Shown here: piece after piece, positions 4,641 to 9,465 of the stretch
How the letters are laid out: the number at the start of each line of letters is the position of its first letter
Position numbering within the stretch: position 1 is the stretch's first letter
Assembly: GCF_003966735.1 (NCBI RefSeq)
Contig: NZ_AP017378.1
Coordinates: forward strand, 915,501-979,500
Length of the DNA: 64,000 nt
Reading direction: 5' to 3'
DNA from: Desulfovibrio ferrophilus
GTDB taxonomy: Bacteria > Desulfobacterota > Desulfovibrionia > Desulfovibrionales > Desulfovibrionaceae
Position numbers and translations under genes: made by a program
The notes under the pieces: model-generated
What the model saw: the letters and a program-made list of their open reading frames with translations, nothing else
The model's database searches: none
What the model was told of the DNA's origin: nothing

Positions 4641-5519
4641 TTAGATCAAGCCATTCTCTTTGAGTGCGATTTTGAGCTGCTCCAGATTCTCGGGCAGCAT
4701 TTCCACCAGAGGCAGGCGCAGTTCCAGGCCGATCTTGCCCATCATGGTAAGACTCGTCTTGACCGGGATGGGGTTGGTCTCCAGGAACATGGCGCGATTC
4801 AGAGGCTGCATTTCGAAATGCAGCTTGCGAGCAGTTTCCATGTCACCCTCGTTGAAGGCTTTGACCATCCCGGACATTTTGTCCGGCACGATGTTGGAAA
4901 CAACGGAAATGACACCACAGCCACCCACGGAGAGCAGAGGCAGGACAGTGAAGTCATCGCCTGACAACATGCAGAAATCCGGTCCCATGATCTCGACCAT
5001 GTCGGACACCTGTTGCAGATTGGCGGTGGCTTCCTTGATGCCCACGACCTTGGGCACGGCCTCTTTGATGGCTTTCAAGGTTGCCGGAAGCACGTTCAAT
5101 GCGGTGCGGCCAGGGACGTTGTAGACCACAAACGGCATGGGTACTTCGTTTGCGATGGCTTTGAAATGGGCGACAAGACCGGCGGGAGTCGGTTTATTGT
5201 AGTAGGGAGTGATGAGCAATGCGCCATCGGCACCGGCTTCTTTGGCGTAGCGGGTCAGCTCGATGGCTTCGCGGGTATTGTTTGATCCTGCTCCGGCCAG
5301 CACGGGCACACGGCCTTTGGACTGGTCCACGCAGATGCGGATGACCTCGCCGTGTTCGGCGTGGCTGAGTGTTGCGGATTCACCTGTGGTGCCGCAGGGC
5401 ACAAGCCCATTGATTCCTTGTTCGATTTGCCATTCGATGAGCCCGCGATAGGCCTCCTCATCGACGGCTCCGTTCTTGAACGGCGTAATTAACGCCGTGA
5501 ACGCTCCCTTAAATTGCAT
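4641..5519 (-). CDS. dapA: 4-hydroxy-tetrahydrodipicolinate synthase
   Basis: This enzyme condenses pyruvate with aspartate semialdehyde in the lysine/diaminopimelate pathway. At 292 residues it has exactly the usual length. Key residues are visible: GTTGES (43-48), ITPYYNKP with Tyr107, YNVPGRT with Tyr133, and the Schiff-base Lys162 in GIKEAT. The start at 5519 is chosen because GGAGGGAG lies just upstream; the in-frame ATG at 5537 has no such site. It follows dapF by 43 bp on the same strand, and lysC, the pathway's first enzyme, is at 29760. Its transcript ends at the terminator at 4581-4625. Confidence 0.97.
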   Translation of the reverse strand: MQFKGAFTALITPFKNGAVDEEAYRGLIEWQIEQGINGLVPCGTTGESATLSHAEHGEVIRICVDQSKGRVPVLAGAGSNNTREAIELTRYAKEAGADGALLITPYYNKPTPAGLVAHFKAIANEVPMPFVVYNVPGRTALNVLPATLKAIKEAVPKVVGIKEATANLQQVSDMVEIMGPDFCMLSGDDFTVLPLLSVGGCGVISVVSNIVPDKMSGMVKAFNEGDMETARKLHFEMQPLNRAMFLETNPIPVKTSLTMMGKIGLELRLPLVEMLPENLEQLKIALKENGLI

Positions 5520-5562
5520 TGCTCCCTCCATAGTCACGTATCATAAGACTCGATCCCTAGAG

Positions 5563-6405
5563 CTACAGCCCAAGAGATTCGATAAACATTTCACCTGAAT
5601 AGGTCTTTACAGCTGGGCCTTCGAGAAAGAGCGTACCGTTTTCCAGATGGATTTGCAAAACTTCGCCGCCGGACGTTTTGAGTTCAACAGACTCATCAAC
5701 CAACCCCAGTTCATGGGCAACCAGAGCCGAGGCCGCAGCTCCTGTTCCGCAAGCAAAGGTCTCGCCTTCCACTCCGCGCTCATAGGTGCGCAGCAGGAGT
5801 TTGCAGTTGCCTCTGATCTGAATGAAATTGACGTTGGTCCCGGCCGGGGCAAAATGCTCATGGTTGCGCATGGCACGCCCAAGTTTGTCCACATCAATGG
5901 CGGAGACGTCATCGACAATGATCACGGCATGAGGAACGCCCGTGTTCACGAAATGCACTTCATATTGGACACCGTCCACGGTCAGACTGGTCCCAAGGAG
6001 TAAATCCTGGGGCGGAGTCAGCTGAACCTTGACCAGAGTGGAGTCGGGGCGGACTTGGGCGCGAATGGGGCCAGCGTCCGTTCCCAGCACATGGTTGCGG
6101 TCTGCAAGGCCGATTTCACAAGCCAGGCGTGCTGCGCAACGCGATCCATTTCCGCACATTTCCGCACGTGATCCGTCTGCATTGTAGAAATGCCAGATGT
6201 AATCAACCTGTTCACCTGCGGGGGCATTTTGAAGAAAGATCAAGCCATCTGCGCCAATGCCAAAGGCTTTGCGGCAGATGCGCTGTGCCCAGAGGGTCAT
6301 CTGGGCTCGGGGCAGAGCCAGCTTTCTATTATCGATAAGAACGAAATCATTGCCGCTGCCATGCATCTTGAAAAAGGGCACGGTCATGCCTGTGGATTGA
6401 CTCAT
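5563..6405 (-). CDS. dapF: Diaminopimelate epimerase
   Basis: DapF converts LL- to meso-diaminopimelate for lysine and peptidoglycan synthesis, with a two-cysteine acid/base mechanism. Both catalytic cysteines are visible: Cys84 in MCGNGSRC and Cys219 in FACGTGAAAS. The N-terminal KMHGSGNDF motif is present. The start at 6405 gives 280 residues, close to the usual 274-280; the open frame continues upstream to 6474 but the extra residues do not fit the family. An alternative ATG six codons downstream (MTVPFF) is possible. The gene sits between the UshA-like selenoprotein gene and dapA on the same strand. Confidence 0.96.
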   Translation of the reverse strand: MSQSTGMTVPFFKMHGSGNDFVLIDNRKLALPRAQMTLWAQRICRKAFGIGADGLIFLQNAPAGEQVDYIWHFYNADGSRAEMCGNGSRCAARLACEIGLADRNHVLGTDAGPIRAQVRPDSTLVKVQLTPPQDLLLGTSLTVDGVQYEVHFVNTGVPHAVIIVDDVSAIDVDKLGRAMRNHEHFAPAGTNVNFIQIRGNCKLLLRTYERGVEGETFACGTGAAASALVAHELGLVDESVELKTSGGEVLQIHLENGTLFLEGPAVKTYSGEMFIESLGL

Positions 6406-6474
6406 GATGGTACCAAGTGGTTGTGCGTTTGCGGATAGGTCAACTAGCGTGGCCGTTTTCCACATGGATTGCAA

Positions 6475-7365
6475 CTATTTTGGTGGGGGGAGTGTGAATT
6501 TTCCAAGCAGAGCGACCAGGTCGGCGTCTTCGGAAAGATCCTGATTGAGCACTTCCAGCTTCATGCTGATGTTCCCATTCTTGATCCATTTCCAGTCATT
6601 ACTCCGAGTGGGCAACTTGCTGATGTGGATGACGTGGACTGCTTTTCCACGCTTGTAGGATCTGACCCAGAACGTTTGGCCATTCCTGGCGAATCGTCCT
6701 GCCAGGCCAGGGCCGGGCCCTGCACCGAGCAGAAGGTGGATTTGTGGAGTGTGCTTCTCCAGAAGCGTACGTTCGGCATTACCACCCCAAGGGCTGATGC
6801 CGATGACGATGTCAGAACGTTTGCTCAAACTTTCAGCCTTGCGAACAACGGCCTTCATCATCATTGCAGAGGGTTCTTTGGCCCCTTTGATCAGCTTGGG
6901 GAAATAGATCAAGCCTACTTTGTAGCCAGCGCGGTCAATGATTCTTTCCTGAATTCTGTCGGAGGCAGTGACCCAGTTTTCGGGAGGCGTCGTACCGGAA
7001 TCCTCCAGCCAAGCCTTTTCGCCCGGGACCAGATATCCAGTATGGTATTCAAGGCTGCTGTAGGCTTTGCTGAGAGCCTGAGCCAATTCTTTGGATTCCA
7101 GCCCTTCCCGGGTCAAGGGAAGGAATTCGAAGGCCCCGGCGATGAACAGGTTGTGTTCATCACCGGGGTCTGAATTCTTGAGATTCTTGAAAAGCGTGGC
7201 GCGCCTAGCCAGGCCGCCCAGAGTCTTGCCCCCTCAGGTGGGACAGGGAGCATATTCCCCGACACTATTGGCTGAATAGATGAGCGTCAGGGCATCTTCT
7301 GCGACAGCCGGTGAGGACCCAATCGAGAAAATGAGCAGCAGGAAGAGAAGTAGTGTTCGGGTCAT
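6475..7365 (-). CDS. UshA-like secreted selenoprotein (in-frame UGA at 7236-7234 read as selenocysteine)
   Basis: Translated from the ATG at 7365 the frame gives 296 residues, interrupted only by one TGA at codon 44. Residues 1-22 form a typical signal peptide ending PAVA. The mature part begins with a LIYSANSVGEYAPCPTU stretch, so Cys41 and Sec44 form a CxxU pair, then GGKTLGGLARRATLF. The rest, to 6475, has no further stop and resembles the 5'-nucleotidase/UshA metallophosphatase superfamily only distantly (for example IGISPWGGNAE). Homologues commonly carry Cys at this position, and from memory public annotation uses the name 'UshA-like (seleno)protein'; I could not check this. A hairpin fitting bacterial SECIS rules follows the UGA. 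The start lies 3 bp after the hup stop, so it is probably cotranscribed with hup. A naive call would start at 7116 and lose the signal peptide and redox motif. It could instead be a nonsense pseudogene, but conservation on both sides argues against that. Confidence 0.8.
7198..7218 (-). promoter_or_regulatory. Putative bacterial SECIS element
   Basis: On the minus strand GGCGGCCT pairs with AGGC-G-CGCC (8 bp with one bulged G) around a GGCT loop. The loop begins 23 nt after the UGA, inside the 16-37 nt range described for bacterial SECIS elements, and it starts with G as that consensus requires. The fold was judged by eye. Confidence 0.6.
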
Positions 7366-7368
7366 CAG

Positions 7369-7644
7369 CTATTTATTGACGAATTCCTTCAATTCCTTAC
7401 CTGGGCGGAAGAAAGGAAGCTTCTTCGGGCTGACCTTGACCACATCCCCAGTCTTGGGGTTGCGACCGGTGTATCCACCGTAGTCTTTGACCTTGAAGCT
7501 GCCAAATCCGCGAATTTCAACGCGTTCATCATTGGACAGCGAGTCCTTGATTGAATCGAAGAATGTGTTGACTACCATGGATGCTTCGTCGACATGGATG
7601 TCATTCTTCTCTGCCAGAGTCTTGATGAGTTCACTTTTATTCAT
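7369..7644 (-). CDS. hup: HU-family DNA-binding protein
   Basis: This 91-residue nucleoid protein is the normal length for HU/IHF. It has the dimerisation helices at the N-terminus, the GFGSF motif, and the DNA-gripping beta-arm sequence GRNPKTGD, followed by the conserved basic C-terminal region ending in a VNK-type tail. It bends and compacts DNA as a dimer. The start at 7644 is chosen from the GGGAGGG sequence about 7 bases upstream; the ORF is open for seven more codons. A good sigma-70-type promoter lies at 7716-7744. The UshA-like selenoprotein gene begins 3 bp after its stop. Confidence 0.95.
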   Translation of the reverse strand: MNKSELIKTLAEKNDIHVDEASMVVNTFFDSIKDSLSNDERVEIRGFGSFKVKDYGGYTGRNPKTGDVVKVSPKKLPFFRPGKELKEFVNK

Positions 7645-7715
7645 ACTTGCCCTCCCTGTTTTCAAAACGGCCCCCCAACGGCCATTTCGACTTCGATACT
7701 ATCAGCATCATGACA

Positions 7716-7744
7716 ACTATGCGAATTATGAGGGTTTTCGTCAA
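7716..7744 (-). promoter_or_regulatory. Sigma-70-type promoter for hup
   Basis: On the minus strand TTGACG (7744-7739) and CATAGT (7721-7716) are separated by 17 bases, about 70 bases before the hup start. It was assigned by eye. Confidence 0.5.
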
Positions 7745-7747
7745 GTG

Positions 7748-8575
7748 TTAATCTGTATTATTTTCCTGTGGCAACGACAGACCTTCCTGATCGCCAAGTT
7801 CTGGCAAACGGGCGTCACGCATGCGCTTCAGGCGTACTGCCAGTTGCAGGATATCCCGGCCAGCATTGCACGAGGGAGCCATTTTCAGTAGCGGGGTCTG
7901 TTTGATGACTGCCTGGATCAGTGTTGGGTCCTGGCGCACCGTCCCGGCGTATTTGATGTCGAGCCCCAGGAAACGTTCACAGGCAGCGTGCAGACGCTGG
8001 AAACTGCGCTTGCCTTCCTCGTGGTCCGTGGCCATGTTGACCACCACGTGAAAGTTCTTCACCCCATGCTCGGAATTCATGACCTTGATCATGGCGTAGC
8101 CATCGGTCAATGATGTGGGTTCAGGCGTGATGATGACAATCCGCTCCTGCGTCATGGCAGAGAATCGCATTACTGTCCGGCTGATTCCGGCTCCCAGATC
8201 AAGCAGCAGGAAGTCGTAGCCGCTTAAAACATTGTTCAATTTGTCGAACAACAGGCCCTGAAGGTCCTCATCGAGGTCGATGAGTTCGGGTACGCCCGAT
8301 GCCGAGGGCAAAAAGTCGAAACCGCCTTGCTCGATGGGGACAACCACATCCGCCGGGTCCACGTCCTGCGTCAGCAGATCTTGGAGGGTCTTGTCCGGGG
8401 TCAGGCCCAGTAGAACATCCAGATTGGCCAGGCCGAGGTCGCAGTCCATGAGCATGACCTTGTGATGCCCCCGGTACAGGGCATAGCCCAGGTTCAGTGC
8501 GAGGTTGGTCTTGCCCACGCCGCCTTTGCCACTGACAATGGAAAAACTGACAACTCTATTCGTATTGTTCGCCAT
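7748..8575 (-). CDS. MinD/ParA-family ATPase, FlhG-like
   Basis: This 275-residue protein is a deviant-Walker-A ATPase: SGKGGVGKT at residues 15-23, the signature-lysine form, with LMDCDLGLANLDVLLG as the switch region and FLLLDLGAG as Walker B. The DLGLANLDVLLG wording is typical of FlhG (YlxH/FleN) proteins, which control flagellar number and placement at the membrane with FlhF, rather than of MinD or Soj. The C-terminus lacks an obvious amphipathic MinD-type membrane helix. It follows the diguanylate cyclase by 14 bp and has an AAGGACC ribosome-binding site. No flhF or flagellar genes are in the window, so the cell-division or plasmid-partition alternatives cannot be fully excluded. Confidence 0.85.
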   Translation of the reverse strand: MANNTNRVVSFSIVSGKGGVGKTNLALNLGYALYRGHHKVMLMDCDLGLANLDVLLGLTPDKTLQDLLTQDVDPADVVVPIEQGGFDFLPSASGVPELIDLDEDLQGLLFDKLNNVLSGYDFLLLDLGAGISRTVMRFSAMTQERIVIITPEPTSLTDGYAMIKVMNSEHGVKNFHVVVNMATDHEEGKRSFQRLHAACERFLGLDIKYAGTVRQDPTLIQAVIKQTPLLKMAPSCNAGRDILQLAVRLKRMRDARLPELGDQEGLSLPQENNTD

Positions 8576-8589
8576 GGAATGGTCCTTGG

Positions 8590-9465
8590 TTAACCGTTGC
8601 CGGTGAACAGAAATTTCTTTTCGTTGGATTCAACAAGCGAGGCCTTGGACAGCTTTTGCATATCCGCAAGGGGGGCAGTGATAACCCGGTCCTTGCCCTG
8701 CGCCTTGGCCTTGTAGAGGGCTTTGTCTGCCAGGTCCACAAGGTCAGGTATCGGTGAATCGGAGACCCCTTTGTAACAGACCAGTCCTGCCGAGCAAGTC
8801 ACCGAGAAGGGGGTACCGTCAGCCGAGCAGTTGAAGGTCAGTTCGCGGACTGATTCCAGGATACGCTCCAGCATGGCTCGGGACTTGAGCAGGCCGGTAC
8901 CGGGCAGGAGCAGCGCGAATTCTTCGCCTCCAAGGCGGGCTGCAACGTCGTAGCGTCTGATCTTGGTCAGTAGCAGCTTGGACAGGCCCACGAGCACATC
9001 ATCCCCGCAGGGGTGGCCGTGAGTGTCATTGACGGCTTTGAAGTTGTCCAAGTCGAGAATGGCGATGGAGAGAGAGTCTCCCATACGCTTTGCCCGTTCG
9101 ATTTCCTGGTCCAGCAACCGGTCGAATGCCCGGCGGTTGGCAAGGGTGGTCAACGGGTCGTGCTCGGTCTGGTAGGCCAACTCCTGCAAGCTGTTCTGGA
9201 TTTGCGATAGAAATGGGTATTCCTCACCATCCACGGGCAGGGCAAGCCAGTCTCGCAGTCCATACTCTTCGGAGAGTGCCGGCCATTGATCCATGGACAA
9301 TCCTGGACAGAGGCGAAGGATCCCGAGCACTTTTTGCGTGCTCTCGACGCATGTTGCATCAGCCCCGTGGACCTGCAGCAGCTTGCGCAACGATTCCAGT
9401 TCGCTCAGGATTTCCTTTTCCTTGGCGGAGAGTATGTCTTCAGCTGTGTTTTTGGGCATGTTCAT
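8590..9465 (-). CDS. Diguanylate cyclase with C-terminal GGDEF domain
   Basis: This 291-residue protein has an N-terminal helical domain of about 95 residues that I do not recognise and a complete GGDEF domain (about 100-270). The active-site loop is GGEEF at 179-183, a catalytically competent variant, and RRYD at 170-173 is spaced five residues before it as expected for the inhibitory I-site. No membrane segment is seen, so it should be cytosolic and make cyclic di-GMP. The start is placed at 9465 (9459 is nearly as good); either overlaps the end of prfB by about 20 bases. The open frame continues upstream inside prfB and should not be used. Neighbouring flhG and the PilZ gene at 13089 make a link to motility control plausible. 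Confidence 0.9.
   Translation of the reverse strand: MNMPKNTAEDILSAKEKEILSELESLRKLLQVHGADATCVESTQKVLGILRLCPGLSMDQWPALSEEYGLRDWLALPVDGEEYPFLSQIQNSLQELAYQTEHDPLTTLANRRAFDRLLDQEIERAKRMGDSLSIAILDLDNFKAVNDTHGHPCGDDVLVGLSKLLLTKIRRYDVAARLGGEEFALLLPGTGLLKSRAMLERILESVRELTFNCSADGTPFSVTCSAGLVCYKGVSDSPIPDLVDLADKALYKAKAQGKDRVITAPLADMQKLSKASLVESNEKKFLFTGNG

Follow-up and report, generated by a model that had tools for sequence, protein, structure and literature searches.

In the current study we analysed the window, a 64,000-nt stretch of contig NZ_AP017378.1; coordinates count from its first letter unless another locus is named. Homology, the selenocysteine (Sec) machinery of the genome and selection tests, though not the stability of the hairpin, indicate that the minus-strand gene at 6475 to 7365 is almost certainly a genuine selenoprotein gene. 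It is a member of the known family NF049981, and the reading that we prefer, with a probability of roughly three in four, is that its product would be an exported selenol/thiol redox protein on a former phosphoesterase scaffold. The features concerned are:

6475..7365, minus strand: UshA-like (seleno)protein family 2 gene, 296 aa, TAG stop (NF049981, E 4.5e-90)
7300..7365, minus strand: probable signal peptide, residues 1-22, a hydrophobic stretch with an AxA end read from the translation
7234..7245, minus strand: CxxU motif, Cys41-Pro-Thr-Sec44, its last position Sec or Cys in 109/109 homologous stretches
7234..7236, minus strand: in-frame UGA codon very probably read as Sec (homologues, Sec machinery, selection)
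7198..7218, minus strand: candidate SECIS hairpin, 8 bp and a single bulge, with GGCT as its loop (7210-7207); weak alone
7369..7644, minus strand: HU/IHF-type DNA-binding protein gene, directly upstream (NCBIfam IHF beta 5e-29, and HU, below cut-offs)
7748..8575, minus strand: MinD/ParA-type ATPase gene, upstream in the conserved block (MinD models 2.7e-32 and 4.4e-26, both below cut-off)
5563..6474, minus strand: dapF, diaminopimelate epimerase, downstream (TIGR00652, 6.7e-79); an open frame whose true start is probably later
4641..5537, minus strand: dapA, downstream, part of the conserved block (TIGR00674, 9.6e-104)

The frame that runs from 7365 to 6475 holds a single in-frame TGA, codon 44 (7236-7234), and closes with TAG at 6477-6475. 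An earlier note on this DNA had described a minus-strand frame of 296 residues with CPTU at codons 41-44 and more than 250 open codons after the UGA, down to 6475; the translation bears this out, with 252 open codons counted past the TGA, a length that stayed open in 1 of 20,000 base shuffles of the same stretch. Its placement of the gene 3 bp after hup is likewise correct, as the stop of the HU/IHF-like gene lies at 7369 and the gap is 3 bp. The putative signal peptide, as read from the translation, ends in AVA ahead of ED. The further claim that the gene is missed by ordinary ORF calling need no longer be true, since an NCBIfam model for the family now exists.

With 301.6 bits over profile positions 1-261 of 262 (E 4.5e-90), the protein clears the cut-off of 140 for NF049981 (UshA-like (seleno)protein family 2), whereas against NF041198 (family 1) it reaches only 61.4 bits, below the threshold of 275, and its motif is CPTU rather than the PCGU of family 1. 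A Pfam search of the protein gave no match up to E 1. Since NF049981 stands in NCBIfam and a 2026 review (PMC13188914) lists "UshA-like selenoprotein family 2, NF049981, CxxU" as GenBank-annotated, the family is already known and the window gene is one of its members; in the open-licence literature searched, where one paper mentions NF049981, no dedicated study of family 2 was found. Family 1 originates in the 2008 GOS survey (PMC2398784; UshA-like, CxU, COG0737 in its entry) and is included in a table of a 2022 review (PMC9312934). A phylum sample of 395 genomes contained 153 with a match to NF049981 at E <= 0.001 and six above its cut-off, all six from the window's own bacterial family. UshA-like selenoproteins seem to extend beyond the two families named so far. 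We also observed UshA-like genes with one in-frame UGA in six loci from other families of the same phylum (L009, L010, L013, L015, L024 and L026), which score below the cut-offs of both curated families; L009, for example, reaches 135.2 of 275 bits for family 1 and 111.2 of 140 bits for family 2.

The AlphaFold2 model, built with 60 aligned sequences, has a mean pLDDT of 95.2 and a pTM of 0.93. Its top fold match is SoxB (2wdc; Z 24.4, rmsd 2.9 over 252 residues, 14% identity), with the 5'-nucleotidase 2z1a (Z 23.9) and UshA (1ush; Z 22.0, rmsd 3.6 over 251) also among the top solved structures, rows within one Z unit being counted as tied; the alignment profile matches 2z1a at 2.6e-17. Both the profile and the predicted fold thereby uphold the earlier description of the protein as UshA-like. 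The dimetal ligands of UshA we take to be D41, H43, D84, N116, H217 and H252, together with second-site residue 254. When these were mapped by eye through the profile alignment to 2z1a (not SoxB), the aligned places in the window protein were found to hold N33, V35, F79, P114, G115, P192, G216 and G218. Among the 49 family-2 rows of the alignment the H252 place is Gly in every one, and ligand-type residues survive at D41 in 4, at H43 in 3, at D84 in 2 and at N116, H117 and H217 in 1 each, while the 11 rows from other groups keep D41 in 4, D84 in 6, H217 in 3 and H252 in 4. The Sec position, by comparison, is Sec or Cys in 60/60 rows (the alignment programs read Sec as Cys) and the partner Cys is present in 59/60. 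The protein of 296 aa comprises one domain, of which 274 modelled residues align over approximately 250 with two-domain chains of 495-565 residues; the C-terminal nucleotide-binding domain of UshA is absent. Given the fold match and the loss of every aligned ligand, the model and alignment indicate that the protein retains the fold of the SoxB/UshA catalytic domain and has lost the metal site. Judging by where it sits in the loop that follows strand 1, Sec44 would lie near that old site.

The probable signal peptide, the CxxU pair and the lost metal site together suggest an extracytoplasmic role in selenol/thiol redox chemistry. In the sequence of events that we propose, SelB with Sec-tRNA would read the UGA at 7236-7234 as Sec during translation, aided by a SECIS hairpin just past it; the protein would be exported by means of its signal peptide and would adopt the fold of the N-terminal domain found in SoxB/UshA phosphoesterases, the two metals no longer being bound; and the pair of Sec44 and Cys41, located in the loop that follows the first strand, would most likely alternate between selenol/thiol and an Se-S bond, which would make the exported protein a redox enzyme or an electron relay. 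We infer the redox role, and with it a substrate and a partner, with somewhat better than even expectation. Two hints come from relatives: in L022 (1372-2814) and L030 (1390-2985), family-1 UshA-like selenoproteins carry a C-terminal Cytochrome_C554 domain (Pfam PF13435) with four CxxCH motifs on the same chain, and the UshA-like gene of L009 is followed by one for a CCG/4Fe-4S protein. The neighbours in the window, HU, dapF and dapA, are not redox genes and speak against it.

The main rival to the redox role is that Sec44 serves without redox turnover, either structurally or, within the cell envelope, as a binder or carrier of a metal or of selenium or sulfur species, which we regard as possible though clearly the less probable of the two. 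Three of the 109 homologous stretches (L026, L028 and L108) have no partner Cys while the Sec position is always Sec or Cys, which is in keeping with such a role and also means that an Se-S bond is not the whole mechanism in all relatives; moreover, the closest folds by Z include SoxB, an enzyme that works on a sulfur carrier. Nevertheless, 48/49 family-2 rows keep the Cys, the usual redox arrangement, and the fusion of two family-1 chains to a multihaem cytochrome domain also argues against a binding or carrier role.

It is far less probable that the protein is still a metal-dependent hydrolase of the 5'-nucleotidase/UshA type with Sec as an accessory. The profile match to 2z1a and the fold matches to SoxB and UshA would be expected of such an enzyme, but the residues now found at the ligand places, the invariant Gly at the H252 place in the family rows, the lack of a Pfam match up to E 1 and the single domain of 296 aa, set against the two-domain 5'-nucleotidase and SoxB chains, disfavour it as a working metal hydrolase.

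The redox reading of Sec44 presupposes that the UGA is decoded as Sec, of which we are very nearly certain. The loci fetched, a subset of all matches, were the best matches of profile searches together with hand-picked stretches, and yielded 113 distinct homologous stretches, of which four are pieces that do not cover the site; the 109 read there comprise 85 from the window's bacterial family and 24 from other families. The site is UGA in 90/109 and Cys in 19/109 (17 TGC, 2 TGT), with no other residue, and the homologues conserve the flanks on both sides of the codon whichever of the two it is. A second copy (paralogue) in the same genome reads CPTC and has no stop, while the nearest orthologue, in G495, is 75% identical and keeps the UGA. 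Compared with G495, pN/pS is 0.33 before the UGA and 0.31 after it, that is, equally purifying selection. The earlier interpretation as a selenoprotein is thus supported by the homologues and by the Sec machinery described below; Sec incorporation itself we infer from these computed observations.

Were the UGA an ordinary stop, the product would be a 43-residue peptide and the remainder untranslated, a pseudogene or the result of a sequencing error. Table 11 would end the frame there, and a 213-aa ORF starting at TTG does follow downstream of the UGA, but the UGA recurs at the same place in 90 of the 109 stretches with Cys in the remaining 19, selection is equal on its two sides and its presence tracks the Sec machinery; ordinary stop, pseudogene and sequencing error alike are consequently rejected as highly improbable. 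Reassignment of UGA in this organism, for example to Trp, for which nothing was found in favour, is rejected as more improbable still, as TGA closes 9 of the window's 33 long non-overlapping open frames and thus also serves as a normal stop, and the homologues have Cys at the site and never Trp.

The genome encodes SelA, SelB and SelD as well as a tRNA-Sec (80.9 bits), so that selA, selB, selC and selD, for which the earlier note had advised a check, are all present. Its SelD (L049 1402-2416; C1:455441-456355) itself seems to be encoded by a selenoprotein gene, AGUAAK containing an in-frame UGA. The window's bacterial family is represented by 288 genomes, of which 153 match NF049981, 150 of them above the cut-off; after removal of a weak match (G464) and retention of two split genes (G525, G599), 152 genomes were left, 138 with a copy having one in-frame TGA and 14 without. 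The residue was read in fetched loci only, and is Cys in 12 of these 14, G400 and G401 having been seen merely to be without a stop. SelA is found in 129/138 genomes with a UGA copy versus 4/14 without (Fisher 5e-8). A search for tRNA-Sec, in which at least 77 bits counted as true, covered 27 of the 152 genomes: seven of the nine UGA genomes without a SelA match have one (77-84 bits), the remaining two without either marker being G501 and G546 (65% and 67% complete), whereas no true tRNA-Sec was found in the ten genomes that lack both a UGA copy and SelA, the matches of 47.3-48.4 bits in four of them (gathering score 47) being counted as other tRNAs. In G499, G509 and G658 (62-83% complete), UGA and SelA are present and no true tRNA-Sec was found. 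Taken together, SelA or tRNA-Sec occurs in 136/138 genomes with a UGA copy versus 4/14 without (Fisher 5e-11), both p-values overstating the evidence since the genomes are related. Four genomes, G399, G400, G401 and G502, run against a simple rule in that they have no UGA copy but both markers, the SelA match of G502 being weak (5.9e-51).

With regard to a SECIS element, the earlier note had proposed an 8-bp hairpin with a GGCT loop that starts 23 nt after the UGA; stem length and loop stand, although it is the loop that lies at 23, the stem starting 15 nt past the UGA. The window hairpin is no more stable than chance when compared with dinucleotide shuffles of the 42 nt (z -0.28) or with 40 synonymous recodings (z -1.1). 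Raw stability is the same whether a gene has UGA (mean -13.6 kcal/mol) or Cys (mean -13.8 kcal/mol), whereas the excess over synonymous recodings averages z -1.06 in UGA and -0.33 in Cys genes (Mann-Whitney p 0.02, kinship ignored), with z < -1 in 40/90 and 6/19, respectively. An Rfam search of 5500-8700 gave no match near the gathering score, and RNAalifold on 21 hand-picked downstream stretches (20 from the loci plus the window) gave four pairs, one with both sides changed in one sequence, which is too little to claim covariation. As to bSECISearch, one paper (PMC12013277) reports that it yields more hits at higher GC content and misses 13% of known genes in the test genomes.

Better signs of a SECIS than hairpin stability are suggested by the sequences themselves, namely frozen codons, a loop register confined to UGA genes and a codon bias. 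Between the window gene and G495, identical 13-codon windows begin only at codons 42, 43 and 44 (of 284), and degenerate codons for the same residue are identical in 12/13 cases after the UGA versus 109/196 elsewhere (one-sided p 0.007, the 13 codons having been picked after the alignment was seen). In 49/90 UGA genes and 0/19 Cys genes the best hairpin carries a loop of 3 nt located 28 nt past the codon, and the second basic codon of GGLARR ends in G, a base that pairs within this hairpin, in 80/90 UGA versus 5/19 Cys genes, kinship being ignored in both comparisons. The window gene is an exception to both the register and the bias: it uses AGG CGC, as do L116, L085, L120 and L017 and also the Cys genes L101 and L105, and it shares with L116, L085 and L017 (the window gene itself being L002) a 4-nt loop at 23, a register seen in no Cys gene.

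A quick tree was computed from 92 of the 109 proteins, leaving out two short pieces and 15 of the 24 proteins from other families, among them L016, the one Cys relative of that set. It needs six Sec/Cys label changes, two of which are forced by well-supported branches; shuffled labels need 16.8 on average, and none of 500 shuffles was as low as six. Since the nine outgroup rows are all Sec, a Sec ancestry is suggested. Among the 85 same-family stretches, an HU-type gene lies upstream on the same strand in 79 (65/67 UGA and 14/18 Cys), a MinD-like ATPase occurs in 72 and DapA or DapF downstream in 54; flanks are mostly 1.5 kb, and the absence of a neighbour hence means little. The six without HU comprise four Cys copies located elsewhere (L003, L117, L119 and L121), L090, which starts near a contig end, and L088; among the 24 stretches from other families, HU is upstream in none. 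As HU precedes both UGA and Cys copies, Sec and Cys genes occupy the same locus.

A number of other arrangements were noted. Tandem copies stand behind HU in L115 and L083 (genus code g281), the first CPTC and the second CPSU, while in L009, L013 and L015, which belong to other families, a DNA polymerase III delta-like gene and then an HD-domain-like gene precede the UGA gene, these neighbours being named by eye with a profile check only for the Fe-S protein after the L009 gene. The CPTC paralogue of the window's own genome (L003 / L113 3655-4512, C1:2130666-2131427) has nearby genes whose products bear prepilin-type N-terminal methylation motifs, with PF07963 above cut-off in two of the three scanned; the gene directly upstream is pilin-like by eye with no Pfam match, and in G495 and G423 pilin-like genes, again by eye, adjoin the Cys copy. 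The second contig of the genome gave no match to plasmids over the 8,000 of its 43,052 bases that were compared.

The family having already been named by NCBI, the possible importance of the gene lies in a combination of features: a phosphoesterase fold free of metal ligands, a loop position occupied by Sec or Cys only, and repeated Sec/Cys exchange at one locus that tracks the machinery. It is possible, and here we hold the balance to be even, that a phosphoesterase scaffold turned into an exported selenol redox enzyme, the adjacent CxxU loop taking over the chemistry as the dimetal site was lost; that this form is conserved across the bacterial family at a fixed gene position, slipping repeatedly to Cys on loss of selenium decoding; and that it belongs to a UshA-like group exceeding its two curated families. 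In what it reports on the subject, a 2006 survey (PMC1794560) describes Sec-to-Cys replacements as few in number and as found mostly in formate dehydrogenase and SelD, and this, together with the combination of features, would make the gene a case that can be put to the test, in which selenium chemistry takes over from metal chemistry on a single scaffold and positional orthologues exist with Sec and with Cys.

When set beside known systems, the window protein comes closest to NF049981, to which its match is full-length and above cut-off, with the CxxU motif common to both and no essential difference found. Family 1 (NF041198) has a related N-terminal domain and Sec in the same loop, but differs in PCGU as against CPTU and in the Cytochrome_C554 domain of the two scanned family-1 chains, which the window protein does not have. 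SoxB (2wdc) is the top fold match, while the metal-ligand positions of the superfamily are lost and the C-terminal domain is absent in the window protein. E. coli UshA and the 5'-nucleotidases (1ush, 2z1a) share the same N-terminal metallophosphoesterase fold, in which the window protein has its metal ligands replaced and a CxxU motif added, again with the C-terminal domain absent.
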